Source: a virus
IMG/VR virus record: IMGVR_UViG_3300017720_001902
Location: 1-53,337 of that record
Length of the DNA stretch: 53,337 nucleotides
Strand: one strand, 5' to 3'
A program made the position numbers and the translations under genes. The notes under the pieces are model-generated. The model was not told the origin of the DNA. It saw only the letters and a program-made list of their open reading frames with translations, and searched no databases. Below, in pieces: positions 1,323 through 33,989 of this stretch (positions within the stretch are counted from its first letter, which is position 1; every line of letters begins with the position of its first letter).

Positions 1323-1323
<1 letters not shown>
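631..1323 (-). CDS. J-domain (DnaJ-like) co-chaperone protein
   Basis: 230 residues. A Lys/Glu-rich coiled-coil-like N-terminus (about 1-85) precedes a degenerate J domain: a basic helix ending KRLAAKTHPDK, with the HPD tripeptide at about 103-105, then FQSVKDAYE resembling J-domain helix III. HPD is the residue set by which J proteins stimulate Hsp70 ATPase. The zinc-finger and C-terminal substrate domains of DnaJ are missing, so it may direct host DnaK to a phage-specific client (inference). The start is GTG, sharing one base with the groEL stop (TAGTG), so the two are probably translationally coupled. Confidence 0.7.
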
Positions 1324-2924
<1,601 letters not shown>

Positions 2925-3766: not shown

Positions 3767-4110
3767 TGTTTCCAAAATAATTGTACTGCTAATAAAGTAG
3801 ATGCCAATACCAATGATACTGCCACCTTTGGTGTTATTCCTTGTTTAAAGAAATATGCGACTCCGAATGCGTATACTACCATTCCGATTGAAAATCCTAA
3901 AAACCTTGCTGGCCATAGTTGTCCATCAAACCCCTCTACTGCGTATTTAGTTCCCCATATATATAAAAATGATATAGGTACACCACATATTGCCAGTAGA
4001 AGTGTATTATCTTTGAACCAATCCCATTTGAATTGTCCGTTTAACTGAAAGAACACTGCGATGTGTCCTAACAGAAACCAAACTATACTCATCAATACAC
4101 TCTTATTCAT
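3763..4110 (-). CDS. Integral membrane protein, about four transmembrane segments
   Basis: 115 residues with hydrophobic segments at roughly 5-22, 34-52, 66-86 and 93-112, separated by short polar loops, so probably an inner-membrane protein. The start shares a base with the groES stop (TAATG). I recognise no family. Being coupled to groES may only reflect operon packing, although a membrane protein needing the chaperonin is possible. Confidence 0.65.
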   Translation of the reverse strand: MNKSVLMSIVWFLLGHIAVFFQLNGQFKWDWFKDNTLLLAICGVPISFLYIWGTKYAVEGFDGQLWPARFLGFSIGMVVYAFGVAYFFKQGITPKVAVSLVLASTLLAVQLFWKQ

Positions 4111-4424
4111 TATGCATTGATTTTCATTAAGATTTCTTGCTCTCTATATAGATTTAGCTTTTCACCATCTAATTTTAGTTGAACACCTGTATTTGGTACG
4201 ATAACATTATCACCTACTTGTAGTTTCATAGGTATTTTTGTACCTGTTGTAGTATGTATACCACTACCAACTGCGAGTACCTCACCCTTCATTTGTTCTT
4301 TATTAGACTCGGGCTTGTACAACCCACCTTTGGTCTTTTCGTCTTCTTTAATAACTCTGACTAATACATAGTCATTTAATGGTTGGTATGTTTTCCACCA
4401 TAGTTTTTTTTCTGTTTTCGCCAT
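4110..4424 (-). CDS. groES: Co-chaperonin GroES
   Basis: 104 residues, the usual GroES length. The family core is visible: PLNDYVLVRV near the start, a mobile-loop region around EKTKGGLYKP, KGEVLAVGSG, the later VGDNVIVP, and a terminal strand EQEILMKI. GroES caps the GroEL ring, and the mobile loop binds GroEL's apical domain. The loop is shorter than E. coli's and its GGLYKP differs from GGIVL, perhaps tuned to the phage GroEL. An 11-residue charged and aromatic N-terminal extension precedes the core. A Bacteroidetes-type promoter lies 20 bases upstream and probably starts the groES-groEL-J transcript. Confidence 0.92.
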   Translation of the reverse strand: MAKTEKKLWWKTYQPLNDYVLVRVIKEDEKTKGGLYKPESNKEQMKGEVLAVGSGIHTTTGTKIPMKLQVGDNVIVPNTGVQLKLDGEKLNLYREQEILMKINA

Positions 4425-9031: not shown

Positions 9032-9940
9032 TTATTTCATGTTTTTAGTTATACTATCGGGAGCGTTCTGAGACACCCAATTAAATAACTTTGATTTCCA
9101 TACTTTTTCAGGTAATATTCCTTTACCTTCTCTCTTTACTGGTAATGATAAGAATCCTTTTGCAATACCTTCAATATTATTTCCATCAGCATCTTTGTAA
9201 AATACCGTATGTTGTGGATTATTTAATATCACATCAACCCTACCATTTAGTCCATTTGGCATTGCCTTTGTTACAAGACCCCAAACAGTATTTGATGCAC
9301 CTTCATGAGTTTTTAATAGAATATCCTCAGGCACCATTCGTTCTCTTTGTCTATTATTATCAAGTGCGGTTACATAATTAGTAAGAACCCATGTTAAGTG
9401 TACATTTTTAGATTCATATCCAGCTTTTTTTAACATAGGAATTATACTTGTAATATCTGTAACATCCTTTGCCGTAATATCAAACATAATATTAGGAAGT
9501 GTTTCAGGATTATCTTTACCTACTAATAGTTTTTCTAATGAATTATCTTTGATACCTGTTGCTTTTACTAACTGATGTAATGCTCTAACATGGTCAGGTT
9601 TCTTTAATTGTAAGTTTCTTAACTGAAATCCTTGTGATTGAATGTTCCTAATGATTTCTATTTCTTTTGCTGGTATATTTTTACCATACTTTTTCAATAT
9701 AGAATCAATATCTAATTTACCCATTCTATTTAGAATCTGAAGTTGTTTTTTCATTTTATCAACATCACGAACTTTGAATGCGGTATTATCTATAAAATGT
9801 GAACCTGAGAATCCTTTACCACTACCTGCACCACCTGCCAAGAATACAACTTGACCATATGGTTTTCTTTGATTATATACAATTAACTTTTCGTCTAATT
9901 GTTCTTCTGTTAGTATCTCTAAAATAAAGTCTTTAATCAT
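9032..9940 (-). CDS. P-loop ATP-binding protein, zeta-toxin/kinase-like
   Basis: 302 residues. Walker A is in VVFLAGGAGSGKGFSGSHF at about 30-48, following a short helical N-terminus. A pattern of D-x-D near VRDVDKMKK resembles P-loop kinases of the zeta-toxin type, which phosphorylate small molecules or sugars. NRQRERMVP could supply an arginine-rich lid. I cannot assign a substrate. The start overlaps the end of the preceding small gene by eight bases. Confidence 0.65.
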   Translation of the reverse strand: MIKDFILEILTEEQLDEKLIVYNQRKPYGQVVFLAGGAGSGKGFSGSHFIDNTAFKVRDVDKMKKQLQILNRMGKLDIDSILKKYGKNIPAKEIEIIRNIQSQGFQLRNLQLKKPDHVRALHQLVKATGIKDNSLEKLLVGKDNPETLPNIMFDITAKDVTDITSIIPMLKKAGYESKNVHLTWVLTNYVTALDNNRQRERMVPEDILLKTHEGASNTVWGLVTKAMPNGLNGRVDVILNNPQHTVFYKDADGNNIEGIAKGFLSLPVKREGKGILPEKVWKSKLFNWVSQNAPDSITKNMK

Positions 9941-10163
9941 TTTTTCCCCTTAATGGAAATCGTTTACTACGATTATCGTAATTTTCTTTTTGGTATGGAA
10001 ACATACGATTCAATCTATCTTGGCGTTTTTTACACCCACAATCTTCTTTACCTGCGACCTCGGCAATCTTTTCAGCCAACTTGTCTAATTTAGTTGCTGA
10101 TGTGATTTTCTTGATTGTATCACCTACACCTTTTGATTTTTCATTCCACTTCATAAGTTTCAT
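9933..10163 (-). CDS. Small basic protein with CGC motif
   Basis: 76 residues, or 73 from the second ATG at 10154. A Lys-rich helical N-terminal half is followed by EDCGCKKRQDRLNRMFPY. I believe similar small proteins occur in other Bacteroidetes and marine phages but cannot name a function. It overlaps the ClpS-like gene before it and the P-loop gene after it. Confidence 0.6.
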   Translation of the reverse strand: MKLMKWNEKSKGVGDTIKKITSATKLDKLAEKIAEVAGKEDCGCKKRQDRLNRMFPYQKENYDNRSKRFPLRGKND

Positions 10164-10377
10164 CTATCTCTACGCTGAATCCATCTTTACGAAACAACTC
10201 GTATAAGTCTTCAACCATTATTATGTCCCCAGTATAAATATCACACTTTCCATTATTATGTACAATGTTTGCAACTGATTGCCCTTGCGTCATTGGAAAG
10301 GACAAGTATTTTCTCAAAACACTCACAACTTCGTCAAATGTATGAATGTCATCATCTAACAAATATAATTTAGCCAT
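10141..10377 (-). CDS. clpS: ClpS-like adaptor protein
   Basis: 78 residues, matching the folded core of ClpS (cellular ClpS adds an N-terminal extension). LLDDDIHTFDEVV at residues 6-18 aligns with the ClpS pattern NDDxxTFDxV, and IVHNNGKCDIYTG at 38-50 aligns with its VHxxGKC segment, whose His helps bind N-terminal residues. The C-terminal part ends in a FSVEIDE strand. ClpS feeds N-degron substrates to ClpAP. Here the first Asn of NDD is Asp and the N-terminal ClpA-inhibiting extension is nearly absent, so it may redirect or block host ClpAP (inference). No Clp ATPase is seen in the window. Confidence 0.78.
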   Translation of the reverse strand: MAKLYLLDDDIHTFDEVVSVLRKYLSFPMTQGQSVANIVHNNGKCDIYTGDIIMVEDLYELFRKDGFSVEIDETYEVE

Positions 10378-10379
10378 GA

Positions 10380-10559
10380 TTAAAGTTCATATTGAATAAC
10401 TTGTTTAATATCATACTTTTGTTTAAATTTTTCAACATAAATTGGTACTTCTATTTCTGCTCCAATTGATGCTTCAACATTTACATCATCTTCAGTTTTT
10501 ACATAAACTATACACTCTTCCTTAAACAAAGGGTCAAGTTTTTTTATTACTATTTTCAT
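10380..10559 (-). CDS. Small hypothetical protein
   Basis: 59 residues with ATG at 10557-10559 and TAA at 10380-10382, too small for standard length cut-offs. It is Val, Ile, Glu and Lys rich (for example MKIVIKKLDPLFKEE) and beta-strand-like. It fills the gap between the ClpS-like gene and its upstream neighbour, overlapping the latter by 26 bases. Function unknown. Confidence 0.5.
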   Translation of the reverse strand: MKIVIKKLDPLFKEECIVYVKTEDDVNVEASIGAEIEVPIYVEKFKQKYDIKQVIQYEL

Positions 10560-14608: not shown

Positions 14609-15016
14609 TTAAAACTGAGATGACTTTTTAAGTTCATCAATAGTTTCTTGTAACTCATCTAAATCAACAGGACATACTAAATCCAATCCTGCTTTGAATG
14701 TCGATTCTTTTATACCATCTTTAAAAATAAAGATAGTTGGCGCCATTCTTACTCTATAATCTTTTTTTGCGTTTGGTGCTTTTGCAATATCAACTCTGTA
14801 ATAATGAGTGATACCTTTAACTTTATCCCAATCTTGGAATGCGTTTGCTTCGTTAAACTTTGCCCAAAACTCGACAACTATTATTGAGGTCTCATCATCA
14901 CCAAATGCTGATTTTTCGTGTATTGCTTCATCGAACTTTGCATCATCTATATAATCTTGACCGAAAACACTACTATAACCTAATAATAATATTGTCAAAA
15001 ACAAATATTTTTTCAT
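14609..15016 (-). CDS. Exported thioredoxin-fold protein without CxxC
   Basis: 135 residues. MKKYLFLTILLLGYSSVFGQ is a signal peptide with a likely cut after VFG, the Bacteroidetes style with Gln at +1. The mature part has thioredoxin features: VVEFWAKFNEANAF where a thioredoxin has VVDFWAxWCGPC, YRVDIAK, then MAPTIFIFKDG with the cis-Pro. The CxxC is absent (Phe-Asn-Glu-Ala in its place); one Cys lies late. It is thus probably a periplasmic binding or scaffolding protein, not a reductase. Confidence 0.72.
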   Translation of the reverse strand: MKKYLFLTILLLGYSSVFGQDYIDDAKFDEAIHEKSAFGDDETSIIVVEFWAKFNEANAFQDWDKVKGITHYYRVDIAKAPNAKKDYRVRMAPTIFIFKDGIKESTFKAGLDLVCPVDLDELQETIDELKKSSQF

Positions 15017-15895: not shown

Positions 15896-17131
15896 TTATC
15901 TAAATGTGTAATTAAAACCGAATGTACTATTAAAGAATTCACTAGCCCACATCTTAGTATATTCACCTTCGACAAATATACCGAAACTTTTGCTCAACTT
16001 CCAACCAATGCTTCCGCCGAACTGATAGTCATCCCATTGTTCAAATTCAGAATCTTGTCTCAATCCACCTTTACCCCAGTTGTTCCTGTTACCATAGTTG
16101 AAATCACCATCACCCATTACATATGAGTGGTAAGGTAATAACCAATTTGCGTATGCATGAGCCCAAAACTTTGGAGTGTAGTGATAGAAATCAACTCCAA
16201 CGATTGGTGATACTAAACCAAATTCTCCGATTCCATCCCATATTTCATTGTTGTAATCGTTAATAAGGTCTCTAAATACACCATCTCTAAATTCTAAATC
16301 CGAATCTGCTACTCTGTTACCATCTGGGTCTAACCAAAAATAATCAAAGCTACTTTGGTCATTACCATCTTGGTCTGTCCATGTAGACTCATACCATTGG
16401 TCTGTATATCCTCTGTCATACCCTAAAGTATACCAATAGTTTGCAATAGTACCATCTGGATTAGTTTCATTCACCCAAATTTCAAACGGGTTATATCCAT
16501 ATGCTCTCTGATGAGTTCTGAAGATTGCACCTGCTGATAATGAGAATTTCTTACCGATTGGTAATCTTGCTCTTACTTCTGCTGATTTGTATTCAAAATC
16601 AAATGCACCTTGTTTTCTACTTTCGATTTTTGCTATATGATATTTACCTGTATGTCTAAGGAAGTATCTACTATTTGTCCATACTTCACCTCTTTGGCGT
16701 TCTTTTTCCCAATGAAATAAGTATTCGAATCCTTTTACTGCCGAAGTTGGCGCGGATAATGCAATTTGTCTTTCTCTATCTGCATTACCTGTCCAAAAGT
16801 TACCTGGCTTTCTTTCGTAATCAAATCTTGCAAGTTTTCTGATACCTACTCCGATTCTGTAATCAAATGGATTATACTCAGTAACTTCTACGATTTGTGG
16901 AATATCGAATATGTTTCCACTTTGGTTTGTTCTTACAAAATACTCTCTACGAGATGGTTCGTATGAATTACGAATGTCACCTGCTGCGTAAACAGTACCA
17001 TATTTTAAGAAATCTTGGTAAAATTCCTTAATAATATTTGTTTTTTTCTTTTCTTTCTTCTCTTCTTGTGCATTTACACTCATTGGTGCAAACATTAAGA
17101 AAATCATGAATAATGATAATAAATTTTTCAT
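15896..17131 (-). CDS. Exported protein, probable outer-membrane beta-barrel
   Basis: 411 residues from the ATG at 17131. MKNLLSLFMIFLMFAPMSVNAQ is a signal peptide ending in NAQ. A short Lys/Glu linker follows, then many alternating hydrophobic/polar strands rich in Tyr, Trp and Gly, and the protein ends FNSTFGFNYTFR; alternating aromatics near the C-terminus are usual for BAM-inserted barrels. I find no tail-fibre signature. A phage-coded outer-membrane protein is unusual and could change host receptors or export. Confidence 0.75.
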   Translation of the reverse strand: MKNLLSLFMIFLMFAPMSVNAQEEKKEKKKTNIIKEFYQDFLKYGTVYAAGDIRNSYEPSRREYFVRTNQSGNIFDIPQIVEVTEYNPFDYRIGVGIRKLARFDYERKPGNFWTGNADRERQIALSAPTSAVKGFEYLFHWEKERQRGEVWTNSRYFLRHTGKYHIAKIESRKQGAFDFEYKSAEVRARLPIGKKFSLSAGAIFRTHQRAYGYNPFEIWVNETNPDGTIANYWYTLGYDRGYTDQWYESTWTDQDGNDQSSFDYFWLDPDGNRVADSDLEFRDGVFRDLINDYNNEIWDGIGEFGLVSPIVGVDFYHYTPKFWAHAYANWLLPYHSYVMGDGDFNYGNRNNWGKGGLRQDSEFEQWDDYQFGGSIGWKLSKSFGIFVEGEYTKMWASEFFNSTFGFNYTFR

Positions 17132-17150
17132 TGTGGTATGTTTCCCCTCT

Positions 17151-17399
17151 TTACTTTTTAGCAAATTTTTCTATCCCTGCGATACCAAAACAACCAAGAG
17201 TTATATATACGAATGAGTTGTATATAAATTCATTAATTATTAAGTCTTTTCCAAAGTATCCAGTTCCTAAGTCAACGATTGCAAATAGTGTCATGACTGC
17301 AAAACTCATAAACCCTATAACATTTTTTTCGTTAATGTCGTTGTTGTCCTTAAATATGTTTTTAAATGCCATCCATTTTCTCCCAATATATTTAAACAT
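17151..17399 (-). CDS. Holin candidate, two membrane spans
   Basis: 82 residues from ATG 17399, or 73 from the inner ATG. Hydrophobic segments at about 27-45 and 60-76 are separated by a short loop, with a charged N-terminus and a Lys end, the class II holin layout. It lies 50 bases downstream of the amidase gene, where holins often sit. Sequence alone does not prove pore formation. Confidence 0.6.
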   Translation of the reverse strand: MFKYIGRKWMAFKNIFKDNNDINEKNVIGFMSFAVMTLFAIVDLGTGYFGKDLIINEFIYNSFVYITLGCFGIAGIEKFAKK

Positions 17400-18616: not shown

Positions 18617-18854
18617 TTTTAATTATCCTTAAATTCTCTATTTTTTTGAGAAATTGTTCAACTGAATAGTCTTTGTTTTTTTCGTCTTTGATTTTTACTT
18701 CTGTAAGTGTATCAGGGTATTTGTTAACCAGCCTTTCAAGAATTTCGAAACCTTGGTCTGTCCAAAAATTCTTAAAGGATGTTTCACCTAAGATGTTTGT
18801 AGAATAGTCTACATCATCCTCATTATCGTCTGGTAACAAAATGTAGTATATCAT
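18609..18854 (-). CDS. Conserved-looking small phage protein
   Basis: 81 residues beginning MIYYILLPDDNEDDVDY, then LGETSFKNFWTDQGFEIL. I have the impression this type occurs widely in T4-like marine phages, with unknown function. It overlaps the glycosyltransferase stop by four bases (ATGA). Ends with a Lys-rich helix. Confidence 0.6.
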   Translation of the reverse strand: MIYYILLPDDNEDDVDYSTNILGETSFKNFWTDQGFEILERLVNKYPDTLTEVKIKDEKNKDYSVEQFLKKIENLRIIKNG

Positions 18855-20035
18855 AGATTTATCAAACTTTTTTCGTAGTATTTTACTTTATTAACCTTTA
18901 TATTAAATATGTCCAATTCGAACTCACCGCATTGAATTCCATTAGAATCGAAGATTTCTGACCACTTTTGTATATAAGAATATGATGTATTTGATAGTCT
19001 ATTTGCATCAAAACTTATTTCAATATCAGCTTCTTTTTGTACATTTATTCTTGTACTTAAATCAAACTTAGTATTTGGTTGTTCCAATTTTATATAACTC
19101 TCGATAACATCTTCGTCTATATCAATTGTTATTGAATCACACCAAGGTTCTAAAATGTTTAATATTTGAGAATTACCATTTTCTACATTAAATTTAATAT
19201 CATATTTATGTGGAACTTCTGGCATCATCATTGCGTCATGTTTTACAAAATGACCCCATTTTCTAATAAAATTCCTTGTTGACCTCATATTTTGTTTCAA
19301 CCATTCATCTGATTCTTTACCAACTTCAGTTAATGTTGGGTTAAATCTCGAACCTCTACAAGTCATATGATATACACACCCATCCCAAGTTTGAATCAAA
19401 TCATATCCATTCAAGAGAAATCTGTTGAATATGTCTGAATCTTCTTTGGATTGGGGTGCGTATAATGGGTCATGTCCACCAATTGAGGTGAAGTCTTCTT
19501 TGAATAAAAACCAAGGTGCAAATATACCTTTAGTAGTTTTTCCATGTTTATATCTTTCATCACCTGTATTAAACCATTCTAAGAATCCATCTTCATCAAA
19601 GTCCTCAGGTTCAGTTTTCCAATCCTTGAGTACTTTTTCAGGCCCATCTGGGTGAAGTGGTGGTTCAATTCGTGTCAATGAAACAACACTCAATGGTTTA
19701 ATATGTTCTAATACAGATTCTAATGCGCCAGGACAGAGATACATATCTGCGTGGTATATTCCTACAATCGGAGTATCTGCTATCTCTACTAACTCATCAT
19801 ATAGGATTGTATGTCCTACTCTTGTTGGTCCTTCGTTTCTAATTGCCTTGAAGTTTGGGTCGTGTACCATCATATCCTCACACCATTCCCAAGTCCCATC
19901 GGAACTGAAATCATCTGCTACACATATTGTTGGTTCAGGACCTGCATTCTTTCTAATTGATTCGTAAGACCACTTGAGATACTTTAAATTATCTCTTGAT
20001 GGTTGAATAAAACTAATATCTTTTTTACTTAACAT
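18851..20035 (-). CDS. Family 2 glycosyltransferase
   Basis: 394 residues. The GT-A start is visible: ISFIQPSRDNLKYL, ICVADDFSSDGTWEW (nucleotide-binding Asp), and HADMYLCPGAL at the DxD position. The middle HDPLYAPQSKEDSDIFNRF and YHMTCRGSRF blocks are close to those of the GT at 21772-22692, so the two are paralogues. About 110 residues beyond the catalytic part are unique. It transfers a sugar from a nucleotide donor to an unknown acceptor. Last gene of the island. Confidence 0.88.
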   Translation of the reverse strand: MLSKKDISFIQPSRDNLKYLKWSYESIRKNAGPEPTICVADDFSSDGTWEWCEDMMVHDPNFKAIRNEGPTRVGHTILYDELVEIADTPIVGIYHADMYLCPGALESVLEHIKPLSVVSLTRIEPPLHPDGPEKVLKDWKTEPEDFDEDGFLEWFNTGDERYKHGKTTKGIFAPWFLFKEDFTSIGGHDPLYAPQSKEDSDIFNRFLLNGYDLIQTWDGCVYHMTCRGSRFNPTLTEVGKESDEWLKQNMRSTRNFIRKWGHFVKHDAMMMPEVPHKYDIKFNVENGNSQILNILEPWCDSITIDIDEDVIESYIKLEQPNTKFDLSTRINVQKEADIEISFDANRLSNTSYSYIQKWSEIFDSNGIQCGEFELDIFNIKVNKVKYYEKSLINL

Positions 20036-20888
20036 AACTTTTTACCTTTTTAATTAAATCATCGTATGATTCTACATGATATATTTTTTGACCTGATAGT
20101 TTAGGGAAGAATGTTTCATATGCTTTATGTTTTACTTCATACCCCTTTACTCCATATATAATATTTTCACCACCGAAATATGCAGCCAATGCTGAATTAC
20201 CACCTTGTGTTGATATTTGATGTTCGGTTAGACTTAAAACTGCCATCTGTGCTTCATTATATGATAGGTTGTATTCATTTGCTATATCTTGTACTGTTTG
20301 TACATTATATTTACTTATCAGTTCTTTATCACCAAAATCAAGTGGTGGGCTACCATCTTGTGTAATATCATCTACATCAGGTCTGTTATAGATTATATGA
20401 AACTTATCAGAACATAATTCAAATATTGTTTTTAATGAGTCTAAATTAATATAATTTACAGGGTCAGAGTCCCACTCCGTTTGATACTTATTTGATATTA
20501 CTAATAAAGGTTTATCAAAATTTAATCCCATCCAATTGTAAACTCCCTTGTAGTGACCATTCAAATCAGGCGGTGACCACCTGTCTTCCCAAACATTACA
20601 ATCTCCTGCATCTTTTGCATCAGGCCAAAGTTCGTTTATCTTTTTACCAAAGAATCCTGCAACATGATTGTGTTGTCTATAATATTGTACATCGTTTATT
20701 TTCAGTTGCATATACTGAATTCTATTTGGATAGACTTCTGTCACATCTAAATTTGGATATAAGATATGACCACCCTTTGAAGTTCTTACTTTTACATCAA
20801 CCCCTTGTTCTTTTGCATAATTTATTAAAGGTAGTGCTGCAAATAGTTCGTAACCAAACTCACCATGTATATCAAAGGTTGTTGTCAT
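20025..20888 (-). CDS. Putative glycosyltransferase-like protein
   Basis: 287 residues. Starts TTFDIHGEFGYELFAALP and has a C-terminal TQGGNSALAAYFGGENII block, which resembles the donor-site part of GT-B or fucosyltransferase-like enzymes that check for a lost object on the host surface. No textbook motif is certain, so the call leans on context between an epimerase and a glycosyltransferase. It overlaps the start of the next gene by 11 bases. Confidence 0.5.
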   Translation of the reverse strand: MTTTFDIHGEFGYELFAALPLINYAKEQGVDVKVRTSKGGHILYPNLDVTEVYPNRIQYMQLKINDVQYYRQHNHVAGFFGKKINELWPDAKDAGDCNVWEDRWSPPDLNGHYKGVYNWMGLNFDKPLLVISNKYQTEWDSDPVNYINLDSLKTIFELCSDKFHIIYNRPDVDDITQDGSPPLDFGDKELISKYNVQTVQDIANEYNLSYNEAQMAVLSLTEHQISTQGGNSALAAYFGGENIIYGVKGYEVKHKAYETFFPKLSGQKIYHVESYDDLIKKVKSYVK

Positions 20889-21775
20889 TAAAAATCAAAT
20901 TTCAATTGTCTACTACTAAACAAAGATTTAATATACTCTTCTAATCTATCTTGAGGTTCCCAGTCAAGAAACTCGATTGCCTCATCTGATTCTCTTAGAG
21001 TTTCTTTGTAATTACCTTGTTGGTTTGGAATGTACTTTCTTTTACACCCACTATATTTTTCGAACATATCTGCCACTTGGTTAATTGAATAGTTTGTACC
21101 TGTTCCAAGTTCCCAAGCGTCAAATGTTGGTTTAGTATCATGAGCATTTAACTTTAGTAATGCGTCTACTATATCGTGTACATGGGTAAAGTCTCTTTTT
21201 TGTTCACCATCACCGACAATTGTAATTGGTTGGTTATCTCTGATTTGTCTTCTCCAGATACCAATTACTGCTGCCCAATCACCATCAATAACTTCATGTG
21301 GTCCATATACATTATAGAACCTACAAATCTCTATACTCATTCCGTAAGTCTTTTTGTATAACTTACATAATTCCTCACCAAGATATTTACAAGCCGCATA
21401 TGGTGATTGATATGGGTCGTGGTGTTTAGAAGATGAACCTGCGTAAATAACTTTAATACCTTTTTTTCTTGCAAAGTCTAAAACCCTCTGAGTTCCTAAA
21501 GTGTTAACATCAAATGTTTCTGATGGATTTTCAAATGAAGGTTGTATTCTTGACAATCCTGCCAAGTGATATATCAAGTCTATGTCCTCAGTAAATGAAA
21601 ACCAACTACTAATCCACTTAACATCATCTTCATAATATGTTGCACCCTTTACATGATTACTTTTTGTACCTGTTGAGTAATCATCAAGTACAACTACTTC
21701 ATGTCCATTTGTAACTAATCTTTTAACTAAATTTGTGCCAACAAAACCGGCACCTCCTGTAACTAATATTTTCAT
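20888..21775 (-). CDS. NAD-dependent sugar epimerase/dehydratase (GalE-like)
   Basis: 295 residues. An extended-SDR: VTGGAGFVGTNLVKRL (GxxGxxG NAD loop), DDYSTG, the conserved HLAGLSRIQPS, YAGSSSKHH, and YAACK supplying the catalytic YxxxK, then CRFYNVYGP. These enzymes invert or dehydrate nucleotide sugars such as UDP-glucose. ATGA overlap with the GT upstream. A second SDR in this window (25920-26882) differs, so two sugars are probably made. Confidence 0.92.
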   Translation of the reverse strand: MKILVTGGAGFVGTNLVKRLVTNGHEVVVLDDYSTGTKSNHVKGATYYEDDVKWISSWFSFTEDIDLIYHLAGLSRIQPSFENPSETFDVNTLGTQRVLDFARKKGIKVIYAGSSSKHHDPYQSPYAACKYLGEELCKLYKKTYGMSIEICRFYNVYGPHEVIDGDWAAVIGIWRRQIRDNQPITIVGDGEQKRDFTHVHDIVDALLKLNAHDTKPTFDAWELGTGTNYSINQVADMFEKYSGCKRKYIPNQQGNYKETLRESDEAIEFLDWEPQDRLEEYIKSLFSSRQLKFDF

Positions 21776-22692
21776 AATAATGGTATTCTATTTGGATTAT
21801 CTGTTCCTTTTATTTGTTTTACAAAAGTTTGGTCATCGTGTTCAGGCAATCTGCCCCATTTTTTAATAAACTTTTGTGCATTTGTTGATTCTGATTCTTG
21901 TTGTCTTTTAGATTTAGAATTCAGTTTATCCTTTGCTTCATCTCTGAAATGAGAACCTCTTGCTGAAAAGTGGTATACAATTGACTTGGATGACATAATA
22001 AATTTATATCCTTCTAATTGCATTCTAATAAACAAATCCATATCGTCAAATGAAGCGGGTGCGAATAGTGGGTCGTTACCACCAATCCAAACATAATCGT
22101 CTTTTTTACAGAAGAATCCGGCACCACCACCTTTTCTTACACGCGTTTCATCCATTGCGGAAAGTTTTTGAGACCATTCATCAAACCAATCTTTATCGAA
22201 GTTGTGATGGAACTCCCCAAACTCATCAGTTGATACAAATACAGTACCAGGTCGGTAATCAGGGTCATTAGGAAATATTTTAGGTTGAATTCTAAATGAT
22301 GAAGCGATTATTCTTTTACCTTGAATAGTCCACTCTGCATTCTCTTCTACAATTTTTTGTAATTCTATATCTTGATTTGGAGCAATCCACATATCTGAGT
22401 GAATTATATTTACATACTCTGTTTGTGCTTTGTCAACACAAAAATCCATACCACCACCGATTCCTCTTGGTGTATCATTATGTTCTACAAACCCTTTTAG
22501 ATTCTTGTCTGTTTGCATTTGATTCATTAACCACTCATCTGTACCATCAGTACAATTCTCTGCGTGAATCACAATCGGTTGGTCTTTGTAATATGCATTC
22601 TTTCTTACAGACTCGTAAGCAAGTTTTACATAGTCAAGATTATTATTTGTTGAAATACAAGTTGTTATTGGACTTTCCATACATCTTCCCAT
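21772..22692 (-). CDS. Family 2 glycosyltransferase
   Basis: 306 residues; ATG at 22692, or 22680 giving less overlap with the gene before. ITTCISTNNNLDYVKLAYES, NCTDGTDEW, and NIIHSDMWIAPN (DxD-like) define a GT-A fold. NDPLFAPASFDDMDLFIRM and YHFSARGSHF match the GT at 18851-20035, suggesting duplication. Acceptor unknown. Confidence 0.87.
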   Translation of the reverse strand: MGRCMESPITTCISTNNNLDYVKLAYESVRKNAYYKDQPIVIHAENCTDGTDEWLMNQMQTDKNLKGFVEHNDTPRGIGGGMDFCVDKAQTEYVNIIHSDMWIAPNQDIELQKIVEENAEWTIQGKRIIASSFRIQPKIFPNDPDYRPGTVFVSTDEFGEFHHNFDKDWFDEWSQKLSAMDETRVRKGGGAGFFCKKDDYVWIGGNDPLFAPASFDDMDLFIRMQLEGYKFIMSSKSIVYHFSARGSHFRDEAKDKLNSKSKRQQESESTNAQKFIKKWGRLPEHDDQTFVKQIKGTDNPNRIPLL

Positions 22693-23612
22693 TTATATGT
22701 TTTTGTTTGTTTCATAAAGTTGTAAGCATTATATTTAGAATACTCACTTGCTTTAGGATACCAATCATTTGACTTTCTTTGTTCGTTTATATCTTTACCA
22801 TCCTCACTAACAACATATTTTCTTTTTCTTGGATGTTCTCTGTTATGTACTAATAAAATATTCTTTACAATATACAAAGGAATTTGGTTATTTCCAAATA
22901 TTGTTAACATTTTATTCATAAAAGCAGTATCTTCGTGGGTAAAGAATACTGATTTTGGTATGTTTACTCCACTTTTTATTATCTCTGATGACATTACCAA
23001 CCCACAACCATTAAATTTATAGTTGTATGTAGATTCTATATGTGGTGATTCAACATCTGAGTTTATCTCTTCCATTTTATCATAATCCATATAACACCTC
23101 GTCCCATACCATGCGTGTGGGTCTCTTGGTAAATCAGTTAGTTTTGGGTGTTCTAATGGTTTCCACGAATCATCCCACATTTTACAAGTTGAAAAGAACC
23201 CAACCCACTTTGGTGTTTGTTCTTTAACTGCCTCGTGTAATGATAATATCGTTTCCATCGCCTGTGATGGAACTAACATATCGGATTCACCCCAAAACAG
23301 GATGTCTGCAAGTTCACAATACTTTTCGTTAAAATCTCTTCTGTAATCTGCGATTGTATATAAATCATCTCTGACTTCGTATTTGATTTGATAACCTTGT
23401 AGTTTATATTGATTACAAACTCTAACATACTTTTCCATAATGTATGTTAACATATCAACCTCATCAGAAACTTTTTCTAAGTCTTGATTTGTGACTAAAC
23501 ACATATCAATCAAAACTTTTTCTTTTGTTACTATTGATTTAGTTAAGGAATCTAAATACTCCTCAAACATATCAACTTCGTACCATTGTACTAAACAACC
23601 TGCCGCTACCAT
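22665..23612 (-). CDS. GT-A-like glycosyltransferase (probable)
   Basis: 315 residues from ATG 23612 (nine codons shorter than the longest frame), with a small overlap of the preceding stop. LADILFWGESDMLVPSQAM carries an acidic ESD where a DxD is expected, and SVFFTHEDTAFMNKM a late acidic pair, both GT-A-like. The N-terminal AGCLVQWYEVDMF could be the first strand. The assignment relies partly on its position in the island. Confidence 0.6.
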   Translation of the reverse strand: MVAAGCLVQWYEVDMFEEYLDSLTKSIVTKEKVLIDMCLVTNQDLEKVSDEVDMLTYIMEKYVRVCNQYKLQGYQIKYEVRDDLYTIADYRRDFNEKYCELADILFWGESDMLVPSQAMETILSLHEAVKEQTPKWVGFFSTCKMWDDSWKPLEHPKLTDLPRDPHAWYGTRCYMDYDKMEEINSDVESPHIESTYNYKFNGCGLVMSSEIIKSGVNIPKSVFFTHEDTAFMNKMLTIFGNNQIPLYIVKNILLVHNREHPRKRKYVVSEDGKDINEQRKSNDWYPKASEYSKYNAYNFMKQTKTYKWEDVWKVQ

Positions 23613-24430
23613 AATGTATCTCTTGGAATCCCTTCCCAACCAGGATTAGTTTCTGAATCGATTACCCACGAAACATTTTGTTTCTGTAACCATTGGTAGA
23701 TACCTTTAGTTGCGTTTGCTACTGACTTGATTTCTCTTGGCCCCATTGATGTTTTTGCATAAACAATCTTTTCGTGTTCATTACCATAGAAGTGTTCTTG
23801 GAATACTCTTTGTGTATCGTCTTCTGTTCCATTTTCAAATGATGATAAATCACCAATGTCCCATCCAACCGTAACAATTTTTCTACACCCCAAGTACAAT
23901 GCCAATGGAATTGCCATCTCATACATAATACCAGGCCCCCAAGGTTGTTGAAATCCTATTTCGGGGTGGTCTAACTTCATAGTATCCCAATCTTCTTTTT
24001 CTGATAGAGAGTGAATCATTTTGTTAGGTCCAACTCCACCACCTGTATTTGGGTTGTTTCTAAATATAGGAATGAATAGGTCTGATTCTAAATTATTATC
24101 AAAAATCATTTGAGGATGAAATTGTTCAAATATTGCCCATGTTATGATTGATTTATTATCTGACCAATCGTATGGTGCGAAGTTACAAAAGTTTAGTAAG
24201 TGAAAGTCAGTAACATCTTTTACTAAATTATATGATTGTTTGATTGGCATACATAATTTATCTGCCATAAACTCATTAAGGAATTCTTTATCATACTTTT
24301 TAAGTGAAGGACCACCTGCGATTATATATGCAGTCTCATCTTTGTACTGATTTTTTAATACCTTTAACCTATCTTCAGGTTCTTCTAATTTTAGAAGTTC
24401 TTCTCGTAACTTACTTGTCTGTAATTTCAT
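23606..24430 (-). CDS. Maf/DUF115-like glycosyltransferase-related protein
   Basis: 274 residues from ATG 24430; upstream frame residues look non-coding. DETAYIIAGGPSLKKYD matches the IIAGGPSL signature of the DUF115 (Maf flagellin-glycosylation) group, and PWGPGIMYEMAIPLALYLG with IVTVGWDIGD fits their second half. In flagellin glycosylation Maf proteins transfer nonulosonic acids, so nucleotide-activated sialic acid-like or Kdo-like sugars are a plausible donor, in line with the CMP-Kdo synthetase nearby. Confidence 0.68.
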   Translation of the reverse strand: MKLQTSKLREELLKLEEPEDRLKVLKNQYKDETAYIIAGGPSLKKYDKEFLNEFMADKLCMPIKQSYNLVKDVTDFHLLNFCNFAPYDWSDNKSIITWAIFEQFHPQMIFDNNLESDLFIPIFRNNPNTGGGVGPNKMIHSLSEKEDWDTMKLDHPEIGFQQPWGPGIMYEMAIPLALYLGCRKIVTVGWDIGDLSSFENGTEDDTQRVFQEHFYGNEHEKIVYAKTSMGPREIKSVANATKGIYQWLQKQNVSWVIDSETNPGWEGIPRDTLW

Positions 24431-24836
24431 CGAATTGTTTAAGTGTTTGTTCCCACGATTCAAACCTAATACCTCTGTCATCTATGTAACAGACTGCTCT
24501 TGGTTTTTCACAAGTTATTTCTTTTATATAAGTATCAATCTTATATTTGGCTAACCACTCCCATATTAGTTCTTCACCTGTCTTACCATTTACAAGTGGT
24601 CTATCAGGTTTTACTTTAGCGGTAAATAAAACTATATCATAACCCTTTTCATCGAACCATTTGATTGCGTCTATTGAACCCTCAATCGGTGGGTCATATA
24701 CAGTTCCATCATGAAACCCTTTTGAATTACCATGGACAACACCATCAAAGTCTATTGCAACTTGATGATTGTTTTCATGCCATTGTAGTGCATCGTAGTC
24801 TTCTATTTCTTTTTTAAGGGTGTCTTCTGTTTTCAT
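24411..24836 (-). CDS. HAD-superfamily sugar phosphatase-like
   Basis: 141 residues from ATG 24836, whose AATTATG context is typical here. VAIDFDGVVHGNSKGF is HAD motif I, IVLFTAKV motif II, and RAVCYIDDRGIRFESW the motif IV region with the acidic pair. This short cap-less type is found in capsule loci. It overlaps the oxygenase upstream. Confidence 0.82.
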   Translation of the reverse strand: MKTEDTLKKEIEDYDALQWHENNHQVAIDFDGVVHGNSKGFHDGTVYDPPIEGSIDAIKWFDEKGYDIVLFTAKVKPDRPLVNGKTGEELIWEWLAKYKIDTYIKEITCEKPRAVCYIDDRGIRFESWEQTLKQFDEITDK

Positions 24837-25551
24837 AATTACTGAATACTGGTGTTGATTTATTTCTACTTGAATATGCCCCATAAATAAACTTTCTAAA
24901 CTCTTTAGTCTCGTGTTGTTTACTTACAGAGTGTAATGAGTTTGGTGACGATAAAAAGAATACTGCTCTATTTGCTTTTGCTGGTATAACTGAGTGAATA
25001 AGTACTGGCTCTTTTTTGTATAAGTTAGGTGCACCACCCCTTGGTTGTTGATAAGTTTCTACTCCATCACTTGAATGTATTACAAAGTCACCACCACTCC
25101 AATCCTTATCATTAAAGAATATTAAGAAGTTCAAAAATCTCTTCTGAGAATCTGCGTGTACTTCTCTAATATAACCATCACCTGCCTCTGACCAATCTAT
25201 ATGAGTAAACATTTTTTGATTTGATATTAACTCATCTGTTAAAGTACATCCCCAATGTTCCATAGAAGCTTGGAATTTCTGTTTAAAGTAGTTTAACATT
25301 TCATCTGAATCTATGTAATTGTGAAACTCATTCCATGTTGTTGTAGATTCTAACCACTTCCAAGTATCTGGTTGACTTGCACTATTTGCGATTTGTCTAC
25401 GACCACCCATAACAGTATTTGCCTTTTCTTCTATGAGTTTACCTGGCCATTCCTTAACCAAATTATTAAAGATGTCTTGTTCAAAACAATCATCAATGAC
25501 TATATAGTCATATGGATAATTGTATACTCTTGCATTATTAAAGTTAATCAT
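24814..25551 (-). CDS. 2OG-Fe(II) oxygenase
   Basis: 245 residues. REVHADSQKRFLNFLIFFND (HxD plus strand), GGDFVIH, ANRAVFFLSSPNSLHSVS (distal His) and RKFIYGAYSSR (2OG-binding Arg) form a complete jelly-roll active site. Likely hydroxylates a sugar, lipid or protein. Located within the glycan island, so a sugar-linked substrate is plausible. It overlaps the next gene by 8 bases. Confidence 0.85.
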   Translation of the reverse strand: MINFNNARVYNYPYDYIVIDDCFEQDIFNNLVKEWPGKLIEEKANTVMGGRRQIANSASQPDTWKWLESTTTWNEFHNYIDSDEMLNYFKQKFQASMEHWGCTLTDELISNQKMFTHIDWSEAGDGYIREVHADSQKRFLNFLIFFNDKDWSGGDFVIHSSDGVETYQQPRGGAPNLYKKEPVLIHSVIPAKANRAVFFLSSPNSLHSVSKQHETKEFRKFIYGAYSSRNKSTPVFSNYENRRHP

Positions 25552-25936
25552 ATTTCTCGTATATTTTCTCTTCGAAAAATTCTGAGTTTAACAAGTGATT
25601 AATTTCTTTCTTTTCTGCTGCCCTTCTATCATTAGTATAATATACTGCTCTTGCCAACTCAATAAACTCTTCATCAAATTTATTGTCTCGTTCTTTTAGT
25701 CTAACTGAGTCTTCGATGACCCACATTTCACCATTAGTTTTTAATAACCTTTGGTAAACTTCTTTAAGTTCATCACCACCTGCTTCCCAAAATGGTTTCA
25801 ACTTATCTTGTAAATAATTTAGTTCATTTGTAATATTAGTTTTTTGAACTGAATCATTAACATTTTTTAATTTTATTTCAAGGATTGATAACTTATCAAA
25901 TGCGTCACCAATCGGTGTTTTAATCTCTATTGCCAT
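25544..25936 (-). CDS. DUF6165-like protein
   Basis: 130 residues. TPIGDAFDKLSILEIKLKNV near the N-terminus resembles the DUF6165 group seen beside glycosyltransferase genes; the rest is helical and charged. No catalytic motif visible. It overlaps the epimerase by 17 bases. The name is from recall only. Confidence 0.5.
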   Translation of the reverse strand: MAIEIKTPIGDAFDKLSILEIKLKNVNDSVQKTNITNELNYLQDKLKPFWEAGGDELKEVYQRLLKTNGEMWVIEDSVRLKERDNKFDEEFIELARAVYYTNDRRAAEKKEINHLLNSEFFEEKIYEKYD

Positions 25937-26882
25937 AGTTCTTTATTTTTTTAGCACCTTCTTCTATTAACATTTTTTTAATACCATCTTCTAAATATAC
26001 AAAATTTTTATGAGATACACAACTTTTTAGTTTAGAAAGTGATGGTCGTCTCCATTTAGTATCGTTACCCCATGCTTCCTTGTATTTCTTTTTATATTTT
26101 TTACCCATGATTCTGTGAATAGTTTTAGCTAAATCTTTGATTCTAACTTCTTCATCAAATCCAATGTTTATGATTTCGTTATCAACTTTTTCAATAATCT
26201 GAGATGCCATTTCTGCGTGGTCTGTTACATAACAAAAAGACCTTGTTTGATTACCATCACCATGTAGATAAAACTCTTCGCCTGATTGTACTCTTTCTAT
26301 AAATTCAGGTATTACTTGACCATACCCATTTGTTGCCATTCTCGGGCCGTAAGTATTAAATGGTCTAAGAATCACAAAACTCTTTCTTTTCTCATTTGCC
26401 CACAACCTTGTCAAGAACTCACCCATACCTTTTGAGGATGCGTATGAATCTCTATCTGCCAATGGATGTAGAATCATTGCGTCATCTTCTTTTGTTGGTA
26501 TCGATGGAGTTGGTCCATAAATTTCAGATGATGATGCGTATACTACTTTTGTTACTGAAGGTGTACATGCGTTCAATACATTCTGAGTCATTAAGATATT
26601 ATTGTTACATACTTTAAATGGTATATCATAAAAATACCTTGTACCATTTATTGCAGCGTAGTGAACAACTATTTCAAATTGTTGTTCTTCCATAAACTTT
26701 TTAATTGGTTCTTGGTAAACCAAATCCATCTCATAAAATTTAAAGTTTTCATGACTTGGTAAGTTATCTATTTTGCCTCTAAAAAAGTTGTCTACTCCAA
26801 CAACCTCGTGACCTTTATCTAATAAACTATCACAAAGATGTGAACCTAAAAATCCTGCTGCACCTGTAACTAATATCTTCAT
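25920..26882 (-). CDS. NAD-dependent epimerase/dehydratase (extended SDR)
   Basis: 320 residues. VTGAAGFLGSHLCDSL, VDNFFRG, HYAAINGTRYF, VVYASSSEIYGPTP and SYASSKGMGEF (YxxxK) make a complete SDR site, followed by LRPFNTYGPRM. The length suits the UDP-glucose 4-epimerase/GDP-mannose 4,6-dehydratase type. It lies one base from the UDP-sugar dehydrogenase, the two reactions often acting in series. Confidence 0.92.
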   Translation of the reverse strand: MKILVTGAAGFLGSHLCDSLLDKGHEVVGVDNFFRGKIDNLPSHENFKFYEMDLVYQEPIKKFMEEQQFEIVVHYAAINGTRYFYDIPFKVCNNNILMTQNVLNACTPSVTKVVYASSSEIYGPTPSIPTKEDDAMILHPLADRDSYASSKGMGEFLTRLWANEKRKSFVILRPFNTYGPRMATNGYGQVIPEFIERVQSGEEFYLHGDGNQTRSFCYVTDHAEMASQIIEKVDNEIINIGFDEEVRIKDLAKTIHRIMGKKYKKKYKEAWGNDTKWRRPSLSKLKSCVSHKNFVYLEDGIKKMLIEEGAKKIKNYGNRD

Positions 26883-27685
26883 TATATTTCGTATCTCATT
26901 CCTTTAGGAACTTTTTTAACAAATTTGTCGTTTTCTTCGTCAATGAATCTGAATATGTCTACATCAATATCGTATTTTTTACATAGAACTTTCATTGCCT
27001 TTGTGTCTTTAGGTAAACACATACCACCATAACCACCAAACTCTTTATTTACATTTAGATAGTGACCTTCACCAACTCCATGGAATAAAAATGCGTCTTT
27101 GATTGCATCATAGTTTGCACCAAAATGTTGTGCTACTTTATGGAATGAGTTTGCAAATGTGATTCTCATCGCTTTGTAAGTGTTTGAGAAGTACTTCATA
27201 AGTTCGGCATCAATGATTTTGACTTTTACTTTGTGAAATGGTAGTGAACCATGACTCTTTACAATCAAATCATAGTTTTCATCACTATCAGTACCAACAA
27301 CTAAAATGTTATTGTTGTATACAAAGTCTTCGTATGCACATCTTTCTCTTAAGAATTCAGGCACAAAACACATATTAAGATTTGGATATTCTTTTCTTAA
27401 TCTATTTGTTGTACCAGGTTCAATTGTACTTTTCAATGCTACAAGACCTTTATACTCCAAGTCATTTAATTGTTTTATTACACTATTAACTGCCGTTAAA
27501 TCACATTCATCATTTGCACCTGTTGGAGTACCAACGGTAATAAAGTTGATTTCTGTATCTAATGTATCTTCTATTGAAGTCTCAGGTATTTTGATATCGT
27601 AACCAACCACCTCGTGTCCGATGTATTCAAATCCTTTTGATATTGCAGAACCTACTGCTCCGATTCCGATTACTCCTAATTTCAT
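26882..27685 (-). CDS. Short UDP-glucose/GDP-mannose dehydrogenase
   Basis: 267 residues from ATG 27685, which forms an ATGA overlap with the previous gene. VIGIGAVGSAISKGF is the NAD loop, VPEFLRE and YFSNTYKAMRI supply the catalytic Glu and Lys region, and GGYGGMCLPKDTKA contains the thioester Cys of this four-electron dehydrogenase family. Usual members have about 430 residues, with a third, UDP-binding domain that is missing here. A reduced but possibly active form. Confidence 0.87.
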   Translation of the reverse strand: MKLGVIGIGAVGSAISKGFEYIGHEVVGYDIKIPETSIEDTLDTEINFITVGTPTGANDECDLTAVNSVIKQLNDLEYKGLVALKSTIEPGTTNRLRKEYPNLNMCFVPEFLRERCAYEDFVYNNNILVVGTDSDENYDLIVKSHGSLPFHKVKVKIIDAELMKYFSNTYKAMRITFANSFHKVAQHFGANYDAIKDAFLFHGVGEGHYLNVNKEFGGYGGMCLPKDTKAMKVLCKKYDIDVDIFRFIDEENDKFVKKVPKGMRYEI

Positions 27686-28344
27686 TCCCATATGTAATTC
27701 CATTTTTGTTTATGCCACTTATTTTCTTTAATGTATTTTATAATATCATGATGTACCATCTTTGTATCAAAATAGTGTGGCTTACAATATAAATGACCAA
27801 AGAGTGGAACTCCACTCGTTACTGAATCTGCCATATTCATAAAACTTCCTTCATAAACATGGATTTCTTTTGCGTTCTGTAATACTTTTCTGTAATCCAA
27901 TATATGTCCTGCTCTACCATCAAGGTTTATCACAGGTAAATTTGGATTCATAAAATGTTTTCTGTTAATACCAATCATTGGACGATTCATATTATCAAGT
28001 GGTCTTTCATGTACGATTATGTAATCTTTACCATGCGTTTGAACCAACTCATTATATAATCTATCCTCTTCATTTACATCATAATCCCAAGTTAAATCTC
28101 GCCAACTACTATGTTCAACACCATCTTGAAATTTTAATCCTATATGTGGTGCGTGATATTCATGAGGACAAGTGCCTGTTGATAGGTTTGGTGTCTCATT
28201 GTATAGTTTTTCAAATAACCAATTTAGTCTTGGTACTTGTATGTATACTCTATCGTATTCTTTACAATACTTTTCTTTAATTACTGATGAGAACATTAAG
28301 CCATCACCAACTCCACCTGCGTGTCCTATTGTTATTGCTTCCAT
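27682..28344 (-). CDS. Putative GT-B-like glycosyltransferase
   Basis: 220 residues. Opens ITIGHAGGVGDGLMFSSVI, like the donor-binding start of ADP-heptose-type transferases, and has a second-half VYEGSFMNMADSVTSGVPLFG block reminiscent of GT-B donor sites. Shorter than full GT-B enzymes (about 350), so it may be reduced. Context within the island supports the call. Confidence 0.5.
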   Translation of the reverse strand: MEAITIGHAGGVGDGLMFSSVIKEKYCKEYDRVYIQVPRLNWLFEKLYNETPNLSTGTCPHEYHAPHIGLKFQDGVEHSSWRDLTWDYDVNEEDRLYNELVQTHGKDYIIVHERPLDNMNRPMIGINRKHFMNPNLPVINLDGRAGHILDYRKVLQNAKEIHVYEGSFMNMADSVTSGVPLFGHLYCKPHYFDTKMVHHDIIKYIKENKWHKQKWNYIWE

Positions 28345-30068
28345 TAACTTAACATTTTTTCAACGATTTCGATATCTGATGGATAGTCAACTGCGTGTGA
28401 TACATTGTCCACCATTACCATTTTTACTTTATGTCCCATCTCTATAAATCTATCAATCTCAATGTCTTCCTCAAATTCGAGTGGTGTCTTTTTACCATAA
28501 TCGGCAAAGTCTTTTAGATGTTCTCTATTGAATCCGTAGATACAAACTTGTTTCATTGGATTACTGGTCTTACCCTGTTTTGTTCCTGGGAGTGGACTCC
28601 TTGAACACCAAATTAACTCATCATTTAGATTTGTAATTACTTTTGGTATCTTTGGGTCTTCAATCTTTTCGTGAGGATTCAAATATGCCATACAATTTAT
28701 AATATGGTCAGGGTTATCAATCTTAGCTTGAATAACTTTATCAATATCGTTTGCTGATAACATAGGTTCGTCACCTTGGACATTGATGATAAAGTCTGCG
28801 TCTATTTCCATTGCCGCTTCTGCTACTCTATCTGTACCCGTTGGACATTCGTCTGAAGTTAAGATTACTTTTAAACCATTGTTTTTTGCAACATCAACAA
28901 TTTCTTCGTTTTCTGTTGCGATGTAAACATTATCTTTACCCACCATCGAGTTTTGACATAGTTCAGCAACCCAAAGAATCATTTCTTTTCCATTAATCAT
29001 CGCAAGAGGTTTTCCAGGGAATCTTGATGATTTGTATCTTGCGGGGATAACTATCGCAACCTTTGGGTCTAAGACCCCATCAAGTTTTTTATTATCAAAT
29101 GACTTCGATTCAGGTATGTCAAGTAATACATCTTCTATCCTATTAGGATGTAAGAACGATTGTTGTAAGTTCTGAGGATACAATGGGTGAATGTGTTTCA
29201 ATCCACTAACCATATAGTTGTGTGTAAAACCCCATTTGTATTTTTCCATCAAAGGATTCATCCAATCAGAAATAACTTTTTGTAAGGGTTTACAATTGTA
29301 TTGTGTCTTATCACCCCAAAGAAATTTTGTTTGGTCTTTTGCGTATTGTAGGTAAGTTACAAGTTGTTCTGTTTTAACATTTCCGACACCTCTACCCATT
29401 CCAAGTAAAGTACCATCTAACCAAAGTGCCCCTTCGGATTCTGCGGCAAGACAATTGGCGAATGCAAGTCCAAGGTTATCGTGTGTATGAATCCCAATCT
29501 TCGAATCACCTTCGAATAGTTCTACAATCTCTTTTGTTCTATCAGGAGTCAATGCTCCATATGAATCAGCAAAGTATAATGATAGTGGTTTTAATTCACC
29601 CATATCATTTACGAAAGTATTTATTTCACTATCATCCAATAAAGATATACCCATCAGATTTACTATCAATTCGTAATCCTTTGATTGGATATATTTACCG
29701 ATTTCGATTGCGAGGTCTAACTCCGAATACTTTATCGCGAGACGACAAATATCGAATGGTGAATTTTCCCCATCATGGATAACATCATCAATCAATGAGA
29801 AATCTACTTCATTACCTTTTATGAAATCCTTTGCGTCAATCATAAACGCAAGTTTGAGGTTTACTGGCTTTCTATTGTCCAATACATCCCAAATGAACCT
29901 ATCGTTACACTTACGATATTTACCACCCTTAACAGGCGATTTGTAACCCATCTCCATTACTCCGACTCCCGAAAGGTCAAGGGCTTGTACTAAGTCTCTG
30001 ACCATCTGAGTGTCAAAGTTCCAATTGGTGTAGTACCCACCATCTCTTAATGTACAATCTAATATCAT
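28344..30068 (-). CDS. Fusion of HMGL-like aldolase and CMP-Kdo synthetase
   Basis: 574 residues from ATG 30068; a TTG at 30113 would add 15. The N-terminal half (about 1-300) is an HMGL-like/4-hydroxy-2-oxovalerate-type TIM barrel: ILDCTLRDGGYYTNW, then SYGALTPDR and KIGIHTHDNLG with the HxH metal pair. From about 336, VAIVIPARYKSSRFPGKPL, NVQGDEPM and a final VDYPSD define KdsB, which makes CMP-Kdo from CTP. Fusing a C-C lyase or aldolase to a CMP-sugar synthase suggests consecutive steps making an activated 3-deoxy sugar acid. Neither half is truncated. Confidence 0.88.
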   Translation of the reverse strand: MILDCTLRDGGYYTNWNFDTQMVRDLVQALDLSGVGVMEMGYKSPVKGGKYRKCNDRFIWDVLDNRKPVNLKLAFMIDAKDFIKGNEVDFSLIDDVIHDGENSPFDICRLAIKYSELDLAIEIGKYIQSKDYELIVNLMGISLLDDSEINTFVNDMGELKPLSLYFADSYGALTPDRTKEIVELFEGDSKIGIHTHDNLGLAFANCLAAESEGALWLDGTLLGMGRGVGNVKTEQLVTYLQYAKDQTKFLWGDKTQYNCKPLQKVISDWMNPLMEKYKWGFTHNYMVSGLKHIHPLYPQNLQQSFLHPNRIEDVLLDIPESKSFDNKKLDGVLDPKVAIVIPARYKSSRFPGKPLAMINGKEMILWVAELCQNSMVGKDNVYIATENEEIVDVAKNNGLKVILTSDECPTGTDRVAEAAMEIDADFIINVQGDEPMLSANDIDKVIQAKIDNPDHIINCMAYLNPHEKIEDPKIPKVITNLNDELIWCSRSPLPGTKQGKTSNPMKQVCIYGFNREHLKDFADYGKKTPLEFEEDIEIDRFIEMGHKVKMVMVDNVSHAVDYPSDIEIVEKMLS

Positions 30069-30121
30069 AGGAAATTTGTTAAAATTTTCTTTCGACACAC
30101 GAATCGTTCCCAAAATGTGGG

Positions 30122-30745
30122 TTACACGAGGGTGTCATAATAGTCGTTTTGTTTTACTTGTTTTTCTATATCTTTGTGATGGAACAATGATAGTTCCTCA
30201 ACCCAAGGTAAATTAGAAATCGTGTCATATCCATCGAGTTTCTCGTGTACCTTATTTATCCAACGAATGGAGTCTGATTTTTTATAAACTCTCCATTGTG
30301 GGTCTGGCCAATTTACTCGACCCTTATCATCAACCTTCCACCCCCACTTCTGAATGTACTCATCGGTTAACCCATCTACCAAATTTACTCTTGGTACAAG
30401 AATCACATCAACACCATTCATTTCAAGGATTGCTGGAAGGTTTTCAATCAATTCATTATTAGGGATTTCATCTGCGTCAATCTGAAAGATGTAATCACCA
30501 TTACATAAATCTGTTAATTTGTTTTTCCAATTTGCGAAGTGTCCATCGAACTCACCACTATGCCATGAGTAAGTCGGATTTACTGATTTTGCTCTGAGGT
30601 ATTCTTCTACTTTTGTATCACCATTCTTAGAATCGTATAGAACTACGATTTCATCTTCGTCTCTGATATTGTCTAATAGGTAAGGTATTAGTTTTTGAAT
30701 TTCTACCAACTCATTACAAACTGTAATTGCGTAACTTATTTTCAT
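30122..30745 (-). CDS. Family 2 glycosyltransferase
   Basis: 207 residues. SYAITVCNELVEIQKLIP, EIVVLYDSKNGDTKV, and DYIFQIDADEIPNNEL (DxD) make a GT-A core, then WPDPQWRVYKKSD and a late LFHHKD. Small, like WaaE/KdtX-type enzymes that add a single sugar to lipopolysaccharide core. First of the run after a small unknown gene. Confidence 0.87.
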   Translation of the reverse strand: MKISYAITVCNELVEIQKLIPYLLDNIRDEDEIVVLYDSKNGDTKVEEYLRAKSVNPTYSWHSGEFDGHFANWKNKLTDLCNGDYIFQIDADEIPNNELIENLPAILEMNGVDVILVPRVNLVDGLTDEYIQKWGWKVDDKGRVNWPDPQWRVYKKSDSIRWINKVHEKLDGYDTISNLPWVEELSLFHHKDIEKQVKQNDYYDTLV

Positions 30746-30754
30746 ACTTTATTT

Positions 30755-33959: not shown

Positions 33960-33989
33960 TCTATAACTTCTTCTTAATTTATTTAACTA

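Follow-up and report, generated by a model that had tools for sequence, protein, structure and literature searches.

The stretch of DNA analysed here (the window, 53,337 nucleotides) comes from a T4-like aquatic phage, of whose genome it is a 53-kb fragment. Its B-family DNA polymerase is nearest to that of Microcystis phage Mel-JY01 (48%), and the T4 capsid family Gp23 is present in its long relatives. A 78-residue open reading frame with ClpS signatures, reported in a preliminary description of this DNA, is present as described there (Table 1); its product reads MAKLYLLDDDIHTFDEVV...IVHNNGKC... and contains the motifs DDDIHTFDEV and VHNNGKC.

Table 1. Positions of clpS, its motifs, its neighbours and the chaperonin genes in the window
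Feature	Position	Strand	Evidence or remark
ClpS core-only protein, 78 aa	10141..10377	-	PF02617 E=9.3e-10; AF2 pLDDT 94.9; PDB ClpS TM 0.91
D8-D9-D10, equivalent of E. coli ClpS Asn34-Asp35-Asp36 (N-degron amino-group site)	10348..10356	-	alignment; contact residues per PMC12493166
VHNNGKC, residues 39-45; His40 = E. coli ClpS His66	10243..10263	-	alignment
In-frame TGA stop upstream of the clpS start, 10 codons before the core motif	10387..10389	-	sequence; stop-to-stop frame 81 aa
59-aa neighbour directly upstream; TAA at 10380-10382, 2 nt ahead of the clpS ATG	10380..10559	-	no family; conserved in window clade
76-aa neighbour overlapping the clpS end	9933..10163	-	phrog_32048; adjoins clpS in window and sister clades
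302-aa conserved neighbour	9032..9940	-	phrog_5268; marginal Zeta_toxin (P-loop kinase) match
Phage GroEL, complete	1323..2921	-	PF00118 E=1.6e-66
Phage GroES, complete	4110..4424	-	PF00166 E=1.9e-20

Profile and structure comparisons, the checks proposed in the preliminary description, both identified this protein as ClpS. The match to PF02617 reached 38.6 bits against a curated cut-off of 23, and the family was matched by all 43 members of the alignment of ClpS proteins (A2). By sequence alone, the protein also matched solved ClpS structures (best E=0.0067) and, weakly, phrog_27368 (E=9e-4); matches to the NCBI ClpS equivalogs lay far below their cut-offs, as expected for a diverged member of ClpS. 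When an AlphaFold2 model built with the 43-row alignment A2 was compared with the PDB, the top match was ClpS of Mycolicibacterium smegmatis (TM 0.91/0.95, 0.8 Å), followed by ClpS from E. coli, Caulobacter, plant and Agrobacterium, and annotated phage ClpS proteins were also among the matches in a viral structure library. The C-terminal domain of L7/L12, which belongs to the same fold class, first appeared at rank 39 of the PDB matches with a TM of 0.64, weaker than ClpS. It is near certain that the gene product is a phage-encoded ClpS.

Absence of the N-terminal extension

The ClpS of the window begins at the first residue of the ClpS core, so that its N-terminal extension (NTE) is 0 residues long. 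The ATG at 10377 lies 7 codons ahead of the core motif, and the TGA stop upstream of it caps any extension at 3 residues. This stop, together with the different frame of the neighbouring gene, excludes a missed upstream start or a fusion with the upstream reading frame. The extension had been called almost absent; its shortness holds, but the qualifier does not, since the extension is fully absent and limited by a stop codon.

This feature is conserved among related phages. The close relatives (L001-L004) have an NTE of 0-1 residues, with stop codons capping it at 3 in the window clade, and the sister clade (L100-L106) has one of -1, limited to 0 by its own stop codon immediately upstream of clpS. 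In a wider scan for homologues in other phages, as had been suggested, about 25 distinct short-NTE ClpS relatives were found, in T4-like genomes of up to 187 kb, with NTE lengths of -1 to 1 and an upper limit mostly set by a stop codon. The members of a second large phage clade, which typically start with MEDTKTHK (the "THK" clade), have an NTE of about 5 residues. Among Bacteroidota, the NTE is at least 17 aa long in 47 of 47 distinct ClpS cores from bacterial genomes, as read from the longest ATG, with start sites unproven in the few hosts where an internal Met lies close to the core. In E. coli ClpS, 26 residues come ahead of the core (PMC9663308).

In a tree of core columns, the ClpS of the window, the sister clade and L018/L028 group together with support of 88-93 (not starred), and a starred branch splits the window side from the MEDTKTHK clade. 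Independent losses of the NTE on the window/sister side and in the "THK" clade were considered (3 label changes on the tree), but with this short alignment a single origin was not rejected (AU p=0.15). The gene lies between the same neighbours in the window and sister clades. Values of dN/dS were 0.11-0.19 for pairs within the window clade, at dS of about 1, and 0.04-0.24 in the sister clade when nearly identical pairs were left out (overall mostly 0.04-0.2). These low values show that clpS is kept by strong purifying selection.

The core resembles bacterial ClpS (E. coli, Bacteroidota) in fold, in size and in the equivalents of Asp35, Asp36 and His66, and it differs in lacking the NTE, in the change of Asn34 to Asp and in a diverged unfoldase-contact helix; a Pro28/Ser34 motif common to the phage clade also sets it apart. 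These equivalences were assigned with the E. coli ClpS sequence as yardstick. In E. coli ClpS, the amino group of the N-degron is contacted by Asn34, Asp36 and His66 (PMC12493166), and the corresponding residues in the window are D8, D10 and H40. The previously noted replacement of the first Asn of the NDD motif by Asp is borne out in the window and likewise seen in L001 and L003, whereas NDD is kept in the close relatives L002 and L004. All 43 aligned proteins (A2) share the residues equivalent to Asp35 and His66, and in the window the gatekeeper Phe, Val17, Val39, His40 and the rest of the pocket are as in Bacteroidota ClpS. The His66 equivalent is lost (Asn or Asp) in four members of the phage family (L209, L213, L232 and L241); a change of this His to Asp has been reported for Leptospira ClpS1 (PMC12493166).

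The N-domain of the unfoldase is contacted in E. coli by Glu79, Glu82 and Lys84 of ClpS (PMC12493166). Their equivalents in the window are Asp51, Met54 and Glu56, at positions where host ClpS varies too. The Glu79 equivalent is Asp in 9 of 10, and the Glu82 and Lys84 positions are diverged in the window and sister clades, often to hydrophobic residues. Docking of this ClpS on an unfoldase is plausible but uncertain, because two of the three contact residues (Met54 and Glu56) differ.

Clp proteins of related phages and of the host

The preliminary description had seen no ClpA, and this is borne out: no Clp_N, Clp ATPase or ClpP was found in the 53-kb fragment. A Clp unfoldase (PF10431) was likewise absent from 23 of 23 IMG/VR records with ClpS and from all 14 sampled long contigs with ClpS, 12 of which have an NTE of at most 3 residues and which include T4-like contigs of up to 187 kb. 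With no phage unfoldase in the records searched, the host unfoldase is the sole partner seen.

ClpP, in contrast, is present in 10 of the 14 long contigs, and its relatives occur in at least 170 viral stretches. The ClpP of the T4-like relatives (212-214 aa; L167:1363-2007 and L168:1375-2013), which comes without a Clp unfoldase, can be aligned with solved ClpP over its length, and its Ser, His and Asp stand at the expected positions. We rejected the possibility that it is a prohead protease: Mel-JY01 has both an S77 protease and ClpP, the L003 contig also has S77, and by our reading the ClpP neighbours in L167 and L168 are not capsid genes. A GroES-like gene lies directly after ClpP in L168. 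No cultured host was found for the window clade; Mel-JY01, the closest cultured phage by DNA polymerase, has ClpP and lacks ClpS.

Phage-encoded ClpS has been published before for jumbo phages. The known examples (Atu_ph07 gp708, PA5oct, Phosso and metagenomic huge phages; phrog_27368) include a protein presumed to act as an adaptor to the ClpAP of the host (PMC7824862) and the Atu_ph07 gene (PMC6102473). The earlier remark that phage ClpS proteins are little described is therefore roughly right, as these jumbo-phage genes were noted without functional work (PMC7824862, PMC6102473). In the literature searched, with subscription journals partly covered, we found no description of an extension-less phage ClpS or of ClpS in T4-like phages.

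The jumbo-phage proteins differ from that of the window in two respects. An NTE of about 18-22 aa precedes the core in the ClpS of PA5oct, Phosso and 3 metagenomic huge phages, and each of the seven ClpS-bearing jumbo phages in which a Clp unfoldase was sought (3 metagenomic huge phages, PA5oct, Atu_ph07, GAP32 and Phosso) encodes one, whereas none was found for phages of the window's kind. The ClpS of Vibrio phage 2.275.O is an exception among jumbo phages in having an NTE of only about 5 aa, and the Rak2-like phages GAP32 and Kaldavass (L175, L176) have a ClpS-like protein of 177 aa whose N-terminal domain is long and whose N-degron motif is degenerate. The link between NTE and unfoldase is not strict, because viral ClpS with a normal NTE also occur where no unfoldase was found (L049, L086, L097, L007 and L027) and because the NTE of Vibrio phage 2.275.O is short.

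Among cellular ClpS types, the one found in Bacteroidota is the nearest. Based on this similarity and on signal peptides in the window that to our reading have a Bacteroidota look, the host of the phage is probably a bacteroidote. ClpS was found in 101 of 119 Bacteroidota genomes, and ClpABC-type unfoldases in 40 of 40 tested; since none of these unfoldases passed the ClpA cut-off, ClpC is the likely partner in the host.

Proposed mode of action

When E. coli ClpS has docked at the N-domain of ClpA, its NTE enters the pore, where it is gripped by the ClpA pore loops; pulling on the NTE remodels ClpS and hands over the N-degron protein, and delivery is inhibited when entry of the NTE is blocked (PMC9663308). 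Repression of the ClpA ATPase by ClpS also rests on the NTE (PMC12493166). From its fold and conserved pocket, we infer that the phage core would still bind N-degrons and would dock on the N-domain of a ClpA- or ClpC-type unfoldase of the host. Because delivery in E. coli involves pulling on the NTE, a core that lacks it is expected to bind and not deliver; with no arm to pull, the cargo would not be handed over. The phage protein would thus occupy docking sites and N-degron proteins in competition with host ClpS and would stall the N-degron branch, while other substrates might still be degraded because NTE contact represses ClpA activity in E. coli. In consequence, phage or host proteins whose N-termini are destabilising would be selectively protected during infection, and this would act beside phage GroEL/GroES and, in most long relatives, phage ClpP.

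That a docking-competent, non-delivering ClpS blocks the host N-degron route is the explanation we favor, and we hold it tentatively, at somewhat less than an even chance. Counting against it, the requirement for an NTE has been established with E. coli ClpA and not with Bacteroidota ClpC, the His66 equivalent is lost in the four family members named above, and the Glu82 and Lys84 equivalents are diverged. The ClpP encoded by relatives also counts against it, since it points to a phage that seeks Clp proteolysis and not just a reduction of it, as does the loose link between NTE and unfoldase. Engineered E. coli ClpS without its NTE is known biochemically. The window protein resembles this construct in consisting of the core only, with no arm for ClpA to pull (PMC9663308), and differs from it in being a natural viral gene that is kept by selection.

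The preliminary description had proposed that the protein steers host ClpAP to host targets or protects phage proteins. As a delivering adaptor, the role also considered for jumbo-phage ClpS (PMC7824862), it would bring N-degron proteins of host or phage to a host Clp unfoldase that does not need the NTE, with phage ClpP as peptidase in some relatives. The retained ClpS fold and pocket fit this role, as does the ClpP of 10 of 14 long contigs, which has conserved Ser, His and Asp and is distinct from S77 in Mel-JY01. To our knowledge, dependence of delivery on the NTE has not been tested in Bacteroidota, which also counts in favor of delivery. Against delivery, the NTE is removed by a stop codon across the clade, whereas 47 of 47 host ClpS have at least 17 aa. 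The lack, in the window and in the whole clade, of the arm on which E. coli ClpA pulls (PMC9663308) weakens the steering proposal, and we regard delivery as rather unlikely; protection of phage proteins fits better.

A further possibility is an N-degron shield: the protein would bind exposed N-terminal residues and hide the N-degrons of phage or host proteins from host ClpS, while no longer docking on any unfoldase. The retained amino-group site and hydrophobic pocket would serve such a shield, and the diverged Glu82 and Lys84 positions in the window and sister clades agree with it, but in 9 of 10 the Glu79 position is retained, as Asp, and stoichiometric shielding would need high expression; we consider this unlikely. 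Slightly less likely again is a repurposed ClpS domain that serves, for instance, as a small regulator or assembly partner by binding some phage or host protein instead of N-degrons and the Clp unfoldase. Loss of His66 in some clade members and the diverged unfoldase-contact surface point this way, as does the identity of ClpS between clades (34-40%, versus 70-80% for some neighbours), but most members keep the core pocket residues and no alternative partner is indicated. A functionless remnant of a captured host clpS would account for a short protein diverged from host ClpS, but is disfavored by the selection test (dN/dS mostly 0.04-0.2 at dS of about 1) and by about 25 distinct intact relatives and a conserved position, and is highly improbable.

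In a broader view, these phages may form a widespread T4-like family with a natural dominant-negative ClpS by which the N-degron route of the host is selectively shut down, while ClpP and GroEL/GroES are provided by the phages themselves; such a ClpS would be a viral means of antagonising the N-degron pathway of bacteria. We give this broader view about one chance in three. What leads bacteria to retain an N-degron pathway, and whether it is contested by phages, are open questions in the field. With a natural ClpS that is stripped of the very element found biochemically to be required for delivery, and that is selected in many phages, one could test directly whether infection requires this pathway to be blocked or redirected. 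If the NTE-less ClpS delivers anyway, the accepted pulling mechanism fails for some Clp unfoldases.

Other genes of the window

Homologues of GroEL and GroES lie near clpS in relatives from the window clade. The 302-aa protein with the marginal Zeta_toxin match is at least 88% conserved within the clade, and RB16-like phages have it too. A thioredoxin-like protein (14609-15016, minus strand) and a 422-aa protein with no Pfam match (15896-17164, minus strand) both carry apparent signal peptides that resemble those of Bacteroidota. A large block of sugar-nucleotide and glycosyltransferase-like genes (18851-34394 and 45110-47324, minus strand) encodes epimerases, a cytidylyltransferase, a UDP-galactopyranose mutase and a mannose-6-phosphate isomerase domain, and looks like a phage-borne surface-glycan pathway. 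HMGL-like and cytidylyltransferase domains are combined in a single 589-aa protein at 28344-30113 (minus strand).
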